The translations under genes and the position numbers were made by a program. The notes under the pieces are model-generated. The model saw only the letters and a list, made by a program, of their open reading frames with translations. It did no database searches and was not told the origin of the DNA. This document shows positions 9,987 through 56,349 of a stretch of 64,000 bases of DNA, piece by piece. The stretch covers positions 250,001 to 314,000 of IMG/VR virus record IMGVR_UViG_3300021964_000012; one strand, written 5' to 3'. The first letter of the stretch is position 1. Every line of letters begins with the position of its first letter. The DNA comes from a virus.

Positions 9987-9994
9987 GTATTTAT
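9987..9994 (-). promoter_or_regulatory. late promoter ATAAATAC, four bases before ATG
   Basis: ATAAATAC matches the T4/cyanophage late -10 motif. It overlaps the gp17 stop codon, and the next bases are GTAC then ATG. With the usual late-promoter spacing the RNA would begin at or next to the A of ATG. Confidence 0.6.
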
Positions 9995-12790: not shown

Positions 12791-12928
12791 TTATATGGAC
12801 TTTGGAGAACGGTTTTTTATTTTGTTATTTGATTTTGGTTGTAGATACTCAGCTGGTAAAGGAGCAACCTTGGGTGTTGGCTTTGGTTTTGGTTTTTCAA
12901 GTCCGCCAAAATTTATGCCTGTAATCAT
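12791..12928 (-). CDS. 45-residue Pro/Lys-rich peptide
   Basis: Small frame beginning MITGINFGGLEKPKPKPTPK; its ATG overlaps the thermonuclease stop as ATGA. The N-terminal ten residues look like a short recognition segment, and the rest is Pro/Lys-rich and disordered. It lies eight bases before radical SAM protein 2, the arrangement of a precursor peptide and its modifying enzyme, though nothing proves that. It could also be a small virion or linker protein. Confidence 0.6.
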   Translation of the reverse strand: MITGINFGGLEKPKPKPTPKVAPLPAEYLQPKSNNKIKNRSPKSI

Positions 12929-13365
12929 GTTACTACGCCATCTTCAAGCAACTTAACTCGATTGGCTAGGTGTGCTTTTTGTACGTCTTCTTTGTTCTGT
13001 CCATGATAAGGTACTGCGTGTCCTTCGCTTACAAGAATTTCAGTAAGCATACGCCATGTATCTGTAGCACCGTCGTACACACTAAAGTCGCCTAAGATAC
13101 GTCCAAACTTGCCTTTCATATCTTCGCCGTTTTTGTTTATTTGTGTTTTGAGAACGCAGGTTTTCCCTAGTAGTTGTTTTACTCTTGCTTTGGCGGCAAG
13201 CCCAAACTTTTTTTCTTCTTTGTCTCTTGTTCTTGATTCTGGTGTGTCTATGCCCATTATACGAACACGCTCATCTGATAGCACTATGCCAAATCCTAAG
13301 TCGATATCTACATCAACTGTGTCACCATCTACAACTTTTATTACTGTTGCTCTATACTCATACAT
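12925..13365 (-). CDS. thermonuclease (SNase-like) family nuclease
   Basis: 146 residues, one complete SNase (OB-fold) domain and no signal peptide. Visible motifs are VVDGDTVDV (residues 11-19), RIMGIDTPES (35-44) with the catalytic Arg and Asp/Glu, and GKFGRILGD (85-93) with the second Arg. It is a Ca-dependent endonuclease for DNA and RNA and is probably cytoplasmic, perhaps for host DNA degradation. A late promoter and a hairpin that can mask its AGGAG Shine-Dalgarno lie immediately upstream. Confidence 0.92.
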   Translation of the reverse strand: MYEYRATVIKVVDGDTVDVDIDLGFGIVLSDERVRIMGIDTPESRTRDKEEKKFGLAAKARVKQLLGKTCVLKTQINKNGEDMKGKFGRILGDFSVYDGATDTWRMLTEILVSEGHAVPYHGQNKEDVQKAHLANRVKLLEDGVVT

Positions 13366-13371
13366 ATTATG

Positions 13372-13393
13372 CTCCTGTTATAGGAGTATTTAT
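13372..13393 (-). promoter_or_regulatory. late promoter fused to a Shine-Dalgarno-masking hairpin
   Basis: ATAAATAC at 13393-13386 is followed without gap by CTCCT (13386-13382), ATAAC and AGGAG (13376-13372). CTCCT pairs with the AGGAG Shine-Dalgarno of the thermonuclease. Late RNA starting about six bases after the motif would lack CTCCT, so only read-through RNA would be masked. Confidence 0.65.
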
Positions 13394-26812: not shown

Positions 26813-26865
26813 AAGAATATCAATTTTCTTGCCTGATATACTGCCCTTTGCAAAGGTTTACATTG

Positions 26866-26873
26866 CTAAATAC
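26866..26873 (+). promoter_or_regulatory. variant late promoter CTAAATAC, four bases before ATG
   Basis: CTAAATAC is followed by CCGT and then the ATG of the HNH-like gene; no Shine-Dalgarno is present. The spacing equals that at 9987 and 56342. Confidence 0.4.
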
Positions 26874-26877
26874 CCGT

Positions 26878-27222
26878 ATGAATAGACCTATTTGTAGTGC
26901 TTGTAACCGTCGATTAGTCGCAGTTAACTATATCAAAGAAAACAAAACGCACTATCGCACAAGATGTGACAGTTGTATTAGACGAAAAAGAAAGGCTCAG
27001 CCAATAACTCCTCGTTGGATGAGAAATGGTTTTAAGAAAAAAACAAATTGCGATAGATGTGGCTTCTATGCAAAAAGCGGAGCACAGATTTTGGTATTTC
27101 ATATGGATGGAGATTTGAATAACTGTGACTTAACAAATCTAAGGAATGTCTGTTTAAACTGTAGTGTTGAGATTACAAAACTAGAACTACCTTGGCGTAT
27201 TGGAGATTTGGTCGAGGACTAG
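26878..27222 (+). CDS. HNH-like zinc protein on opposite strand
   Basis: About 114 residues from ATG 26878 (a TTG at 26848 is less likely). It carries four CxxC-type pairs: CSAC, CDSC, CDRC and CLNC, and the segment FHMDGDLNNCDLTNLRNVC, which resembles the H-N-H core with its Asn and Leu-rich helix. Such proteins are small nicking or homing-type nucleases or nucleic-acid binders. It is alone on the plus strand between gp18 and the dNMP kinase and overlaps the kinase 3' end by 36 bases. Confidence 0.65.
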   Translation: MNRPICSACNRRLVAVNYIKENKTHYRTRCDSCIRRKRKAQPITPRWMRNGFKKKTNCDRCGFYAKSGAQILVFHMDGDLNNCDLTNLRNVCLNCSVEITKLELPWRIGDLVED

Positions 27223-28363: not shown

Positions 28364-28759
28364 CTATTTTCTTGGTTTTACTGTTTTCTTTGTACCTACT
28401 GTGCCTTTAAGACTCGTTTTTGGCGGTTTGTATGCTTTTTGTACTTTTCCACCTGATGATACTGTTTGCTTACGTATTTTATTAAGCATACCTAACAGTT
28501 TACTTGCTGGATTTACACGTTTTGTTTTTTTGGCTTTGCGAGCAGCCTGTTTGCTTTTGGTTTTACGAGTCACTTTCATTTGTGCTCGGCGCTTTTGATC
28601 TATTGGTGCATCGCAATCTTTGGCATTGCCAACAACCCGTCCACGTCTTGCACCACTGGTACAACGCCATTTGGTTTTGAGCTTGTTGCCTTTTCGTGAG
28701 AACACCATTTCGTGCTCATTGACAATCTCAGGTTTGGAAACAAACTCCTCAACACGCAT
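28364..28759 (-). CDS. small basic protein
   Basis: About 131 residues from ATG 28759, which overlaps the gp13 stop as TAATG. An N-terminal part (VEEFVSKPEIVNEHEMVFSR) is followed by WRCTSGARRGRVVGNAKDCDAPI, then a Lys/Arg-rich tail (VTRKTKSKQAARKAKKTKRV). This basic pattern is common among T4-like phage proteins near neck genes and suggests DNA binding. Function is unknown. Confidence 0.6.
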   Translation of the reverse strand: MRVEEFVSKPEIVNEHEMVFSRKGNKLKTKWRCTSGARRGRVVGNAKDCDAPIDQKRRAQMKVTRKTKSKQAARKAKKTKRVNPASKLLGMLNKIRKQTVSSGGKVQKAYKPPKTSLKGTVGTKKTVKPRK

Positions 28760-29532
28760 TAGCCAATTACCCAAGTAAGTGGTTGCGATCCATCAACATA
28801 GTTTTTAAGTTCTTCAATCTTGGCATCCATAATAGCAGAACCTTCTGCTTTCATCTGTGCACCGTTCAAAGCAGTACCACCTTGCGGGCCTGCAATAGTA
28901 GCAAACTTTTCTCTAGCTTCTCCAATAATCAGTTTACAGTTTCCAATCATGTAGTCTTTTATCCACTGTGATGTAGAAAAGTCAGTTAATAGTTGTACCT
29001 CAGGACGTAGATTATAGCACCAAAGCAGAACTGTTTCTCCTGAACCTTTTATGTCACGCATTAGTGTAATTTGTTTTGTTGCACTATTGAAATTGTAATT
29101 TAAAAAACCACCAAACATTTTTGCAGTTAGTTCTACATACTGACTATAAAAATCATAGGTAGCAAGACCACCCATCTGATTGCCATTAAGTAAATAGGTG
29201 TTTAGTGCCGCCGAACTAAAAGGTTCAAATGCTGATCCTTCTCCGCCATTGCTAAATCCAATTGTACGTCGAAACACCTGCCTAACGGTCATGATTTCGC
29301 TTGGCAATGTGTATATGTTTGTGTCTTCTCTAAGAGTGAGAAAATTATAACTTTCTTCAAATGCATTTTCTGCCCTTTGTCGATAGACACCAATAGCTCT
29401 TTGATAAGCACTTTCATAATGACTTGCATCAAGTTCAGTATCAATTATGCCTTCGCCTAATTGTAACTTGATGTAATCAAATACTTCTTGCTTTTTTGTT
29501 TCTAATGTTTGATCAAGTGTTTCAGTTGCCAT
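28759..29532 (-). CDS. gp13: gp13 neck protein
   Basis: 257 residues. Recognised by the cyanophage gp13 pattern: DAKHYE-like ASHYESAYQRAIGVYRQRAENA, EESYNFLTLREDTN, YTLPSEIMTVRQVFRR, LATYDFYSQYVEL, WIKDYMIGNCKLIIGEAREKF and AGPQGGTALNGAQM. It closes the head-tail neck with gp14. Unlike T4, gp14 lies 2.4 kb away on the other strand. A late promoter precedes it. Confidence 0.9.
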   Translation of the reverse strand: MATETLDQTLETKKQEVFDYIKLQLGEGIIDTELDASHYESAYQRAIGVYRQRAENAFEESYNFLTLREDTNIYTLPSEIMTVRQVFRRTIGFSNGGEGSAFEPFSSAALNTYLLNGNQMGGLATYDFYSQYVELTAKMFGGFLNYNFNSATKQITLMRDIKGSGETVLLWCYNLRPEVQLLTDFSTSQWIKDYMIGNCKLIIGEAREKFATIAGPQGGTALNGAQMKAEGSAIMDAKIEELKNYVDGSQPLTWVIG

Positions 29533-29549
29533 AATACCATCCTATGACA

Positions 29550-29557
29550 GTATTTAT
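29550..29557 (-). promoter_or_regulatory. late promoter ATAAATAC for gp13
   Basis: ATAAATAC lies 18 bases before the gp13 ATG. Its AATAC can pair with GTATT directly before the ATG, enclosing the AGGA Shine-Dalgarno in the loop; RNA started at the promoter would lack AATAC. Confidence 0.65.
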
Positions 29558-29562
29558 GCGGA

Positions 29563-30825
29563 TCACCAGGCCTTTAGTATAACCACATGCTCGTTGCCTC
29601 TACCATTGTATTTTATTTCAGTGGCTTTTATATTGGCAAATTGTTTTCTGTTGTTAGGTTTTCCAGCATTCATAAGTTCTTTTAATTGTTCTGCTGGTTT
29701 ACGCAGTGTTTTTTGTACACTTTTGTTTGGATCAAAACCAATCACACTATTGCTTTTAATGCTGTAGGTCTTGATTGTTTCGTCAGCAATGACATATATT
29801 AGTTTACGTGTTTTAGTATTGTAAAGCCATGCTTCAGAACCGTGAACTAATTTTTCTGGCGAAACACTAGTCAGTTCAAGCTCATCAAAACGTCTAAGAT
29901 ACTTGAACTTACGTACTAATTGTGCAGGTGTTTTTTGTTTGGCAACTCTAGGAGCTCTATCTGCTTTTTTAACCTGTACATAACTTGCACAGTCAGCAAC
30001 TGCACGTTCTAAAAACTTTTGCATTGCACGTATCTGTAACTTGCCTAAATGGCTATATCCTTCTTCTAGTTGTGCTATCATATCAAGTTCTTGTTCTGAC
30101 ATTTTAGCCTGTTCTTTTTTACTAGGCGGGTTCATAAGTTCATTGATTTCACTAAGTTGTGCTTTGAGTGGATCAGCAATAATATCTATTGTTTGCGGCG
30201 GACATCCTTCATCACGTAACAATTTCATAAGACTGTACTTATCAGGATCCTTACAGTCGTTTGCCATAAACTGATCAACCAGTTCATGCACTGCACCTTC
30301 GATATCCATTGTTTTATCACGCATGTTTTCTTGTATGGTTTTGCGTTCGACTTTTGGTTTTGTATTATCTACAACAAGTTTTGGTACAGGTGGTGTACGT
30401 TCTAGGGCTTGTGCAATAGTTTTTTTAACATAATCGCTAGTAGGATGTACATCACCAATTGTGCCTGGCAGTGTTTGCCAGTATGAGTCGTGCTCAGGAT
30501 GTACGTCTGGCATACCTTGACGTAAACATCTTGCATAGATACTTGCATATACCATTCCATTGTGTCCATGACGTTTCATAGTAGCAATATCTTCTTTGCT
30601 GTAGTTGTTTTCTTTCATCCATGCTAACAGGTCTGGAAACAGTTCAACAGGCTTACGTTCTTGGTAATACCAATCAACTGAAACCATCTTGTGCTTATGG
30701 TAGGCTTGTCCGCTCATTTGCAATGCAGTTGACCAATCAGGGTCTAATGCTTTACTTCGTTGTTTTCTTACTACCGGCTTTTTCTTACGAGTGCCTGGCT
30801 TCATTAAACTTTTGCCTTTTGCCAT
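29563..30825 (-). CDS. unknown basic phage protein
   Basis: 420 residues, not recognised. The N-terminus is very basic (KPGTRKKKPVVRKQRSKAL), followed by a helical body (WYYQERKPVELFPDLLAWMKE, RHGHNGMVYASIYARC) and a beta-like C-terminal part (EAWLYNTKTRKLIYVIAD, GNEHVVILKAW). It is read from a consensus sigma70-type promoter, so it is probably early, unlike gp13 behind it. A nucleic-acid role is possible from charge only. Confidence 0.6.
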   Translation of the reverse strand: MAKGKSLMKPGTRKKKPVVRKQRSKALDPDWSTALQMSGQAYHKHKMVSVDWYYQERKPVELFPDLLAWMKENNYSKEDIATMKRHGHNGMVYASIYARCLRQGMPDVHPEHDSYWQTLPGTIGDVHPTSDYVKKTIAQALERTPPVPKLVVDNTKPKVERKTIQENMRDKTMDIEGAVHELVDQFMANDCKDPDKYSLMKLLRDEGCPPQTIDIIADPLKAQLSEINELMNPPSKKEQAKMSEQELDMIAQLEEGYSHLGKLQIRAMQKFLERAVADCASYVQVKKADRAPRVAKQKTPAQLVRKFKYLRRFDELELTSVSPEKLVHGSEAWLYNTKTRKLIYVIADETIKTYSIKSNSVIGFDPNKSVQKTLRKPAEQLKELMNAGKPNNRKQFANIKATEIKYNGRGNEHVVILKAW

Positions 30826-30856
30826 CGAATTCTCCTAAAGTTCTAACTGTTTACAG

Positions 30857-30884
30857 AGTATAACATGTATGTAGTTAGTGTCAA
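30857..30884 (-). promoter_or_regulatory. sigma70-type promoter for the 29563-30825 gene
   Basis: Perfect -35 TTGACA at 30884-30879 and -10 TATACT at 30862-30857 with a 16-bp spacer, about 30 bases before the ATG; Shine-Dalgarno AGGAGA follows. Host RNA polymerase could use it early. Confidence 0.7.
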
Positions 30885-30917
30885 CCACGATTATTTTATT
30901 CTTTTCAAATAAAAAGG

Positions 30918-30945
30918 TTGACTTATACTGTGACTGTGTTATTAT
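30918..30945 (+). promoter_or_regulatory. sigma70-type promoter for the plus-strand small genes
   Basis: TTGACT at 30918-30923 and TATTAT at 30940-30945, 16-bp spacer, 30 bases before the ATG at 30976. It is divergent to the promoter at 30857-30884. Confidence 0.65.
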
Positions 30946-30975
30946 GTATGTACAGTTAGAAAAAAGGAACAGTAT

Positions 30976-31203
30976 ATGAAGAAGAAAATACAAATTATTG
31001 GAATAGTAAAAGAAGATAGTGTTAATGTAGAATACGAAACTGGCAAGCACGATAGTATTAGTAGTGCAGAAGCTGAATTGCTTACTATGATGGACTACAC
31101 AAAATCAGGTCCGTTTCCGGTTAATAATATCAAACTGGTAAAAACTATATACAACTTTGTAGAATGCTATGAAGATGAATTTAAGGATTGGAAGTATGCT
31201 TAA
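30976..31203 (+). CDS. small unknown protein (early operon)
   Basis: 75 residues. A beta-rich N-terminus (KKKIQIIGIVKEDSVNVEYETG) and acidic helical C-terminus (VECYEDEFKDWKYA) are seen. It is the first gene after a sigma70-type promoter, with Shine-Dalgarno AAAGGAA. No family is recognised. Early small phage proteins often act on host functions, but nothing here shows that. Confidence 0.6.
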   Translation: MKKKIQIIGIVKEDSVNVEYETGKHDSISSAEAELLTMMDYTKSGPFPVNNIKLVKTIYNFVECYEDEFKDWKYA

Positions 31204-31357
31204 TGAAACATTACAACTATACGAACGTCGTATAGACAACTGCTGGCAAGCCGCAGAATTTTGTGCTGATGGCACATGGGGTAGAGAATATTGGACTCAG
31301 AATGCAATGTATCTTCTTCGACAACTAAACCGTGAACTTAATGGAGAAAACAAATGA
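31196..31357 (+). CDS. small helical protein
   Basis: About 53 residues from ATG 31196, chosen because AAGGA lies before it; it overlaps the previous stop by eight bases. Mostly helical (TLQLYERRIDNCWQAAEFC, NAMYLLRQLNREL), with conserved-looking Trp and Cys. It overlaps the next start by four bases. Unknown function. Confidence 0.55.
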   Translation: MLNETLQLYERRIDNCWQAAEFCADGTWGREYWTQNAMYLLRQLNRELNGENK

Positions 31358-31575
31358 AATTTATGTTGATTTCAATGATGTTAGCAAACCCAATGGTATA
31401 TGCTAACGAAAAAACCTGTAATGTTGCCGCTGATGCACTAAAAAATGTCGATATAGAAGCAGTGTGTATTCCAGCAGGAGAACAAGCAAAAAATCCAGGC
31501 GATGCAATGCTAGAAGGTTTTATGAAGCTTATTGATCAAATGGAAAAAATGCATAATCAAAGTATGTCAAAATGA
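31354..31575 (+). CDS. small predicted secreted protein
   Basis: 73 residues. The first 17 residues (MKFMLISMMLANPMVYA) have a Lys, a hydrophobic core and an A-x-A-like VYA end, a plausible Sec signal peptide cut before NEKTC. The mature part has two Cys (TCNVAADALK and AVCIP) that could form a disulfide, then a charged helical tail. A phage-encoded periplasmic or envelope protein is likely; envelope change or superinfection exclusion is speculation. Confidence 0.6.
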   Translation: MKFMLISMMLANPMVYANEKTCNVAADALKNVDIEAVCIPAGEQAKNPGDAMLEGFMKLIDQMEKMHNQSMSK

Positions 31576-31868
31576 ATGCTACTTTACTAGGATTACAATT
31601 TGATACCAGCAAGTATCATAAAGGCATACAACTTGTATTAGACTTTAAGGATTATGAGTTGAGTGTTGTACAACATGACGGAAGTTATGGTGGCACTCAA
31701 GGTTTGTTTGAAATTATGGTAAGTGATGAAAATGGAGGAGTTGAACTTCCTGGTATCACAGAGCCAGGCGATACTGTTAAAGGCTGGTTGACTTTAGAAG
31801 ATGTTAGTTCTATATGCAAGAAGATGACTTCAATCACTGGCAACGATCCAGTGAAGGTTGCTATCTAG
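31572..31868 (+). CDS. small unknown protein
   Basis: 98 residues, alpha/beta with strands QLVLDFKDYELSVVQHD and GGTQGLFEIMVSDENGG. No motif is recognised. It starts inside the end of the secreted-protein gene (ATGA overlap) and ends five bases before the gp14 late promoter, so read-through from this early operon would run into gp14. Confidence 0.55.
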   Translation: MNATLLGLQFDTSKYHKGIQLVLDFKDYELSVVQHDGSYGGTQGLFEIMVSDENGGVELPGITEPGDTVKGWLTLEDVSSICKKMTSITGNDPVKVAI

Positions 31869-31872
31869 GACC

Positions 31873-31901
31873 ATAAATACAGTAATAAGGATTACTGTAT
31901 G
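31873..31901 (+). promoter_or_regulatory. late promoter and Shine-Dalgarno-masking hairpin at gp14
   Basis: ATAAATAC at 31873-31880. Bases 31877-31886 pair perfectly (10 bp) with 31891-31900, with AAGG of the Shine-Dalgarno in the loop and the first two bases of ATG in the stem. Late RNA starting near 31885 would lack most of the 5' arm, while read-through RNA from the early operon would be masked. Confidence 0.75.
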
Positions 31902-33257
31902 CCCAGATTAAGTTTATATCGCCCAAATCGACAAAACGATTACAAGTTTATTGACCGCACTGTTATGGAAATGTATCAAGTTGGCGGTGTTGACATGTTT
32001 GTACACAAGTATCTCGGTCCTCAAGTTACTGGTGATGACAGTTCAAGTGTCAGCGGTGGCACACAGGATGCAACACAACCAGCCTATAGTACCGAATCAC
32101 CTTTGTTCATTGAAGATTTATTTTTGCTGGAAAACAGAGATCGCAAGTACGATGACGATGTTTATCAAATGCGAGGTGTTTACAATTCACAGGACATAGA
32201 TTTTGATCTAAGTCAATTTGGATTGTTTTTAAACAACGATACACTGTTTATTACTTTCCATTATAACTTTATGATAGATACAATTGGTCGTAAACTTATG
32301 AGTGGAGATGTACTTGAATTACCAAATCTTAAAGACTATAACCCTCTTGATAGTAGTATTGCTCGAGCTATACCTAAATACTATGTAATACAAGACGCGG
32401 CGTTTGCAAGTGAAGGATTTTCGCAAACATGGTTGCCGCATTTATGGCGTGTCAAAGCTACACCACTGGTAAGTGCTCAAGAATACAACGACATACTTAA
32501 AAAACCATTTGCAGAAAAAAATATTTGGGATAATGGAAATTATTATCCAAAAGGCAGTACTGTTTTAAGTGGTGATACCTATTACAAAGCAATCAAAGAC
32601 GTAGACCCTGGTGTTGAAATCACCGATACTACGCATTGGGAAGAATTTGAACCCACAAGCGAACGTGACACATTTGGCACAGTACAAAAAGACCTAGAGC
32701 TTAATGATGCTATTTTACAACAGGCAGAATATGAGGTTCCACTCAGTGGTTACGACTCTGTAAAATTTTACATTGTTCCAACAAACGAAGACGGTTCACC
32801 AGCAGATCCAAACAGTTACACTGTTGATAATAATGGTATTACAGTTGATACAACAAATGTAGATGTTGATGGACAACCACAATCTCCAAGAGCAAACGGT
32901 TACACACTGGGTTATCTAACCGGCGATGGCTTAGCACCAAATGGATTACCAGTTACACCAGGTATTAGTTTTCCAAGCAACCCACAAGAAGGCGACTTTG
33001 CACTACGATTAGACTATTATCCAAACAGACTTTTTCGCTATAGTGGTACACGATGGATTAAGTACGAGGACGATGTGAGAACCAACTTGACACCAGGCGA
33101 TATTACAAAGACAGTTACAGGATACGGAAACGTAACTTCACAAACACAAAGAAGTAGTTTTGTAAACAACACAAACCAAACTGCTACTGAAGATCGTGGT
33201 AATATTCCAGAGCGTCAACCATTGAGTAAGTTGCTTAAACCACAGGCTGATAACTAA
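31899..33257 (+). CDS. gp14: gp14 neck protein
   Basis: 452 residues, longer than T4 gp14 (256). The marine gp14 pattern is clear: PRLSLYRPNRQNDYKFIDRT, VDMFVHKYLGP, FLLENRDRKYDDDVYQMRG, DIDFDLSQFGLFLNNDTLF, GRKLMSGDVLELPNL and EGFSQTWLPHLWRVK. A Ser/Asp/Pro-rich insertion and tail account for the extra length. It forms the neck with gp13. Its stop overlaps the gp15 start (TAATG). Confidence 0.9.
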   Translation: MPRLSLYRPNRQNDYKFIDRTVMEMYQVGGVDMFVHKYLGPQVTGDDSSSVSGGTQDATQPAYSTESPLFIEDLFLLENRDRKYDDDVYQMRGVYNSQDIDFDLSQFGLFLNNDTLFITFHYNFMIDTIGRKLMSGDVLELPNLKDYNPLDSSIARAIPKYYVIQDAAFASEGFSQTWLPHLWRVKATPLVSAQEYNDILKKPFAEKNIWDNGNYYPKGSTVLSGDTYYKAIKDVDPGVEITDTTHWEEFEPTSERDTFGTVQKDLELNDAILQQAEYEVPLSGYDSVKFYIVPTNEDGSPADPNSYTVDNNGITVDTTNVDVDGQPQSPRANGYTLGYLTGDGLAPNGLPVTPGISFPSNPQEGDFALRLDYYPNRLFRYSGTRWIKYEDDVRTNLTPGDITKTVTGYGNVTSQTQRSSFVNNTNQTATEDRGNIPERQPLSKLLKPQADN

Positions 33258-56341: not shown

Positions 56342-56349
56342 GTATTTAT
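56342..56349 (-). promoter_or_regulatory. late promoter ATAAATAC, four bases before ATG
   Basis: ATAAATAC overlaps the gp20 stop codon and is followed by TATT and ATG. With normal late-promoter spacing RNA would start at the ATG. Confidence 0.55.

Follow-up and report, generated by a model that had tools for sequence, protein, structure and literature searches.

The leader of gp14 in this virus contains a hairpin built partly from the gene's own late promoter, and we consider it highly probable (roughly 0.86) that this hairpin would act as an early-block/late-release translational lock removed by promoter choice. The window, that is, the whole stretch of DNA analyzed here, comprises 64,000 nucleotides of a 328,292-base record. 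The lock we propose would act in cis on gp14 and be lifted by the choice of promoter. RNA started at a sigma70-like promoter (30918) would cross four small genes before reaching gp14 and would include the whole hairpin; its Shine-Dalgarno and start codon would be shut and gp14 would not be made early. A late polymerase with a gp55-like sigma factor would start at about 31884-31885, within the 5' arm, yielding an RNA in which the hairpin could not form and from which gp14 would be translated. The promoter bases ATAC would then have a second role as an anti-initiation sequence, and gp13, which lies across a pair of divergent early promoters, would be guarded by the same device.

Analysis of the leader revealed that ATACAGTAAT-AAGG-ATTACTGTAT folds into a perfect 10-bp stem (31877-31886 with 31891-31900), and that the gp14 ATG (31899) has its first two bases inside the 3' arm. 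This agrees in sequence and coordinates with a preliminary description of the hairpin, which had reported the same stem, the AAGG loop and the ATG in the 3' arm. That description had also placed the late motif in the 5' arm; this holds for ATAC, the last four bases of ATAAATAC, to which pairing within the motif is limited, and not for ATAA, which is unpaired. The local fold has an energy of -9.8 kcal/mol, equalled by none of 500 leader shuffles in which the motif, Shine-Dalgarno and ATG were held fixed. The cost of opening the initiation region is 10.8 kcal/mol in the read-through RNA versus 2.0 kcal/mol in the predicted late RNA, a larger gap than for any other of the 25 late-promoter genes in the 328-kb record. 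The exact 24-mer of the hairpin occurs once in the 328,292-base record, and Rfam covariance models gave no match at E <= 1 across positions 29300-32100. The features of the locus are listed in Table 1.

Table 1. Features of the gp13-gp14 region (window coordinates)
Feature	Position	Strand	Remarks
gp13-like head-tail adaptor	28759..29532	-	phrog_211, E 5e-29
Promoter-embedded hairpin of gp13, AATACTGTC-ATAG-GATGGTATT	29533..29554	-	Second such hairpin; masks gp13 Shine-Dalgarno AGGA
Late promoter motif of gp13, ATAAATAC	29550..29557	-	
420-aa divergent gene	29563..30825	-	phrog_11903 (unknown function); between the - strand promoter and gp13
Divergent sigma70-like promoter, TTGACA-16-TATACT	30857..30884	-	Back to back with the 30918 promoter
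Sigma70-like early-type promoter, TTGACT-16-TATTAT	30918..30945	+	Extended TG; directed toward gp14; same place in relatives
Four small ORFs	30976-31203, 31169-31357, 31354-31575, 31572-31868	+	Probable early operon
Late promoter motif of gp14, ATAAATAC	31873..31880	+	T4-type; RTAAATA kept in nearly all relatives
Hairpin 5' arm, ATACAGTAAT	31877..31886	+	Starts with the last four motif bases
Predicted late transcription start	31884..31885	+	Would strip 7-8 of 10 5'-arm bases; inferred from T4 spacing and relatives
Shine-Dalgarno, TAAGGA	31886..31891	+	Spans the loop and the closing pair
Hairpin loop, AAGG	31887..31890	+	
Hairpin 3' arm, ATTACTGTAT	31891..31900	+	Includes start-codon A and T
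gp14-like neck/head structural protein, 452 aa	31899..33257	+	phrog_11591 'virion structural protein', E 2e-81

Early and late classes were assigned from promoter motifs in the sequence. The window has more copies of the motif ATAAATAC than expected (10 versus 3.9), ATAAATA[CT] lies upstream of about 25 genes in the 328,292-base record, and a gp55-like late sigma factor is encoded at record positions 319749-320588 (phrog_12791, E 1.5e-72; phrog_234, E 1.6e-23); a T4-type late program is therefore likely in this virus. Downstream of gp14 are gp15, a tail sheath stabiliser (PF16724), and a NUDIX gene. None of the four small ORFs upstream had a PHROG or Pfam match, and the stop of the last (31868) is 30 nt ahead of the gp14 ATG. 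Read-through from the early-type promoter into gp14 is predicted, and no + strand terminator was found between the 30918 promoter and gp14. DNA similarity to named phages was limited to about 118 bp at 71% with Erwinia jumbo phages, and the nearest named relatives by protein are the Atu_ph07, PA5oct and PBECO4 groups. Elsewhere in the window, a small cysteine-rich ORF that looks like an HNH-type endonuclease (26848-27222, +) has the tail sheath gene on one side and a kinase-like gene on the other, in a convergent arrangement.

Late transcription in T4 starts about six bases past the last A of the motif. With this spacing, late RNA would begin at about 31885 and all but two of the 5'-arm bases would be lost. 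The relatives constrain this position further, since in several of them the gp14 ATG is only 4 nt after ATAAATA, so that the start would lie no later than the fifth base past the last A of the motif, inside the arm, if the RNA is to hold the ATG. This bears on a reading in which the late start lies upstream of the hairpin and the hairpin acts in the late RNA, as a 5' stabiliser or a protein-binding element. The late start is a position that we infer, and mRNA can be stabilised by 5' hairpins; however, the stem starts within the promoter motif itself and the closely spaced relatives put the start inside the arm, and we regard a role in the late RNA as extremely improbable.

To compare the hairpin across relatives we collected 104 close relatives of gp14 in viral contigs, and further ones by profiles. 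Three clades carry a mask built from different arms. Clade 1 (L002-L056) has a ATACAGTAA...TTACTGTAT stem of 8-10 bp. In clade 2 (L057-L078) the stem is 7 bp long and re-registered, CATRCAG-AGGAATA-CTGTATG, and its two variable positions stay paired via G.U or U.G. Clade 3 (L111 and others) has CAGCTAA-AGGA-TTAGCTG, in which one stem pair occurs as C-G, as U-A (L127) and as a U.G intermediate (L285). Few sequences vary in clades 2 and 3 and pair counts there are not significant by themselves; the case for conservation is carried by the independent stems and the shuffle nulls. Eleven of the 13 hairpin leaders tested were equalled or exceeded by no more than 8 of 200 shuffles; L161 (15/200) and L070 (10/200) have hairpins that are not strong by this measure. 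Most control leaders, from loci without the operon, had z near 0. Three further relatives (L079, L080 and L134) are without the short hairpin; in these the promoter stretch GGCGATAAA pairs with the gp14 codons TTTATCGCC, a long-range form of the gp14 lock, and the predicted late RNA of L079 and L080 is fully open.

The dyad is also a perfect DNA palindrome overlapping the promoter, and could be an operator at which a dimeric repressor occludes the late promoter, much as T4 I-TevI binds a site overlapping a late promoter, its own (PMC2988022). This possibility was dismissed as very unlikely: arm sequence, spacing and register vary between the clades and a conserved half-site was not seen, the G.U and U.G pairs of clade 2 would be mismatches in DNA, the arms of the gp13 hairpin are unrelated and freely diverging, and the window contains no second copy of the gp14 palindrome within 3 mismatches. 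Chance complementarity is a further possibility, as an occasional 10-bp dyad is expected in 328 kb and this one was picked from many features. Against a functionless dyad stand the shuffles (0/500), the retention of structure despite sequence change, the association with an upstream operon and a gp13 device with strong covariation; judged by the sequence comparison, the chance reading is already contradicted and its probability is close to negligible.

The relatives also provide a natural experiment on the presence of an upstream early operon. Among loci with a locatable divergent neighbour, a co-directional sigma70-like promoter was found in the gap at 20 of 20 hairpin loci versus 0 of 70 non-hairpin loci (nominal Fisher P = 2e-20, which overstates the association because the loci are related). 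At hairpin loci the space between gp14 and its divergent neighbour holds a co-directional sigma70-like promoter and small ORFs; in the remaining relatives gp14 directly adjoins the divergent early promoter, or the intervening genes are mostly on the minus strand. Some non-hairpin gaps span 580-1390 nt, some (L198, L155, L181) are about as long as those of hairpin loci, and 10 of the 70 non-hairpin loci have a Shine-Dalgarno leader. On the gp14 tree the hairpin state occurs in one 26-row clade and separately in L161 and L168 (starred support), with stems of different sequence, and there were therefore at least two hairpin origins; the tree is a quick one, and the independent association events are few (about two).

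This comparison strongly supports the early-block/late-release logic that the preliminary description had put forward, in that the mask has persisted while its arms were replaced or changed in a compensatory way, and is confined to loci with a co-directional sigma70-like promoter and operon upstream. The same description had held that absence of the hairpin from homologous phages that keep the promoter and Shine-Dalgarno would speak against the idea. Such cases do occur (L126, L176, L191, L206, L154), and in each gp14 is without an upstream early operon. PBECO4 and Munch (L148, L149), which show a similar opening-energy difference with a divergent upstream gene and no operon, are counted as exceptions to the association; the opening-energy metric is imperfect alone, flagging these two phages and ranking gp13 of the window only twelfth. 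The CCAA beside the late motif of Munch can pair with TTGG at the Shine-Dalgarno. Leaders of gp14 in the Atu_ph07, PA5oct and PBECO4 groups had no short promoter-embedded hairpin save a weak one in Pseudomonas phage PA5oct (L146), where ATAAAT pairs with GTTTAT. This weak hairpin is preceded by a terminator-like hairpin with a T run just ahead of gp14, possibly another way of excluding upstream transcription from the gene.

The gene gp13 is part of a divergent minus-strand unit that runs from an early-type promoter (30884) through the 420-aa gene to gp13, and its leader contains a 9-bp hairpin with two G.U pairs and the late promoter in the 5' arm. Family-wide, a hairpin was detected in 32 of 57 distinct gp13 leaders at P <= 0.01 and in 38 at P <= 0.05; about a third had no clear hairpin. 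The stems have been remade with different bases (e.g. GGGACaggaGTCCC, ATCTGGGCaaggaGCCCAGAT and CAAGAGCGgaaaggaCGCTCTTG). When arms were swapped between leaders, own arms formed 5.8 bp on average compared with 3.9 bp for swapped arms (0 of 2000 permutations as high). In a ten-sequence alignment the covariation score was 0.417 versus 0.170 for shuffled alignments (0 of 500 as high), with double changes at five of eight pairs; these ten sequences were chosen for similar loop geometry and so lean toward pairing, which does not apply to the swap test.

Blocking of early RNA with release by late promoters is known for T4 e, soc, 49 and I-TevI (PMC3014915, PMC2988022). We refolded T4 e, soc, I-TevI and I-TevII, and compared gene 49 and Aeh1 mobE from the literature. 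In T4 I-TevI, the 5' arm contains ATAAATAC, the hairpin masks the Shine-Dalgarno, the 3' arm extends into the ATG and the late RNA begins beyond the arm (PMC2988022), as proposed for gp14. I-TevI, the td intron endonuclease, differs from gp14 in being a homing endonuclease gene within an intron, in its unrelated helix and sequences, and in pairing the whole of ATAAATAC rather than half. In T4 e the promoter bases AATACC pair with GGTATT just ahead of the ATG, the 5' part is missing from late RNAs and the early RNA is blocked about 100-fold (PMC3014915); this lysozyme gene is a lysis gene with two late promoters, whereas gp14 encodes a neck protein and has one. The sharing of bases between promoter and anti-Shine-Dalgarno, which had been put forward as special to gp14, is thus already established from I-TevI and e (PMC3014915, PMC2988022). 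T4 soc, gene 49 and Aeh1 mobE are late genes within early or middle units and likewise have a ribosome-binding site sequestered in the long RNA (PMC3014915, PMC2988022); they are different genes from gp14, and in soc the stem is made from bases past an upstream TATAAATA with the nearer TAAATA in the loop.

As in these T4-type early-blocked genes, the Shine-Dalgarno and start codon of gp14 are closed in the long RNA, the late promoter is placed such that the predicted late RNA loses the 5' arm, gp14 belongs by its sequence context to a unit led by an early-type promoter, and a late sigma factor of gp55 type is encoded by the virus. The gp13 and gp14 hairpins appear to be genuine, conserved and unusually well-resolved members of the T4 early-block/late-release type in uncultured jumbo phages, where they sit on core neck genes. 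The T4 system also bears on translational coupling, in which ribosomes finishing at 31868 would open the hairpin and give a low coupled level of gp14 instead of a block. The upstream ORF ends about 28-42 nt ahead of the ATG in most hairpin clades and a terminating ribosome could touch the first stem bases, but T4 e, whose hairpin lies at a similar distance from nudE, is still blocked about 100-fold in early RNA (PMC3014915), and gp13 and gp14 are structural genes that each have their own late promoter; we consider coupling unlikely.

Where no co-directional early operon is present, gp14 is either leaderless or preceded by a plain leader. In about 60 distinct relatives gp14 has no Shine-Dalgarno and its ATG comes 4-8 nt past the late motif (short-spaced loci include L141, L163, L169, L178, L200 and L225); these late genes, spread over a large group of jumbo phages, are probably leaderless. 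Those of L141, L163 and L178 match the window in the gene itself, its late promoter and its divergent early neighbour; they differ in having the ATG 4-8 nt past the motif and in lacking a Shine-Dalgarno, a hairpin and a co-directional early operon. Two interchangeable designs, a leaderless start or a promoter-overlapping hairpin leader, may silence late neck genes next to early units, with insertion of an early operon repeatedly accompanying the hairpin design and the stem newly evolved each time; we regard this scheme as evenly balanced between right and wrong. Late motifs 4 nt from an ATG are also found in the window at 9987-9994 (-, ATG 9982, ATAAATACGTACATG) and 56342-56349 (-, ATG 56337, ATAAATACTATTATG). 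Both genes are predicted to have leaderless late mRNAs, and similar cases lie at record positions 203260 and 122742.

The comparative evidence points to the T4 early-block/late-release trick operating, in a large group of uncultured phages, on core genes for virion assembly. New here are the genes targeted, the natural experiment and what looks like an exchange of leaderless start and hairpin leader, the family-wide leaderless/hairpin switch being the more novel part. The lock is seen with an upstream early operon and is absent without one, a natural experiment that T4 alone could not offer, and this association suggests a sequence-only rule for locating such locks. Abundant leaderless late genes in tailed phages are also indicated.

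A genome-wide rule, by which every late gene behind an early promoter would have a hairpin, fails. Of the 25 late genes, only gp14, gp13 and the 13365(-) gene show a clear local hairpin that lies at or over the Shine-Dalgarno, and several others, among them those at record positions 127736 and 141686, are preceded by an early-type promoter but have no masking hairpin. The 13365(-) hairpin (window 13372-13386, -), CTCCT-ATAAC-AGGAG, directly follows a late motif and is an exact complement to the Shine-Dalgarno of a 146-aa gene (12925-13365; 5 of 500 shuffles). No early-type promoter was seen upstream of this gene, and its hairpin is a candidate third lock.
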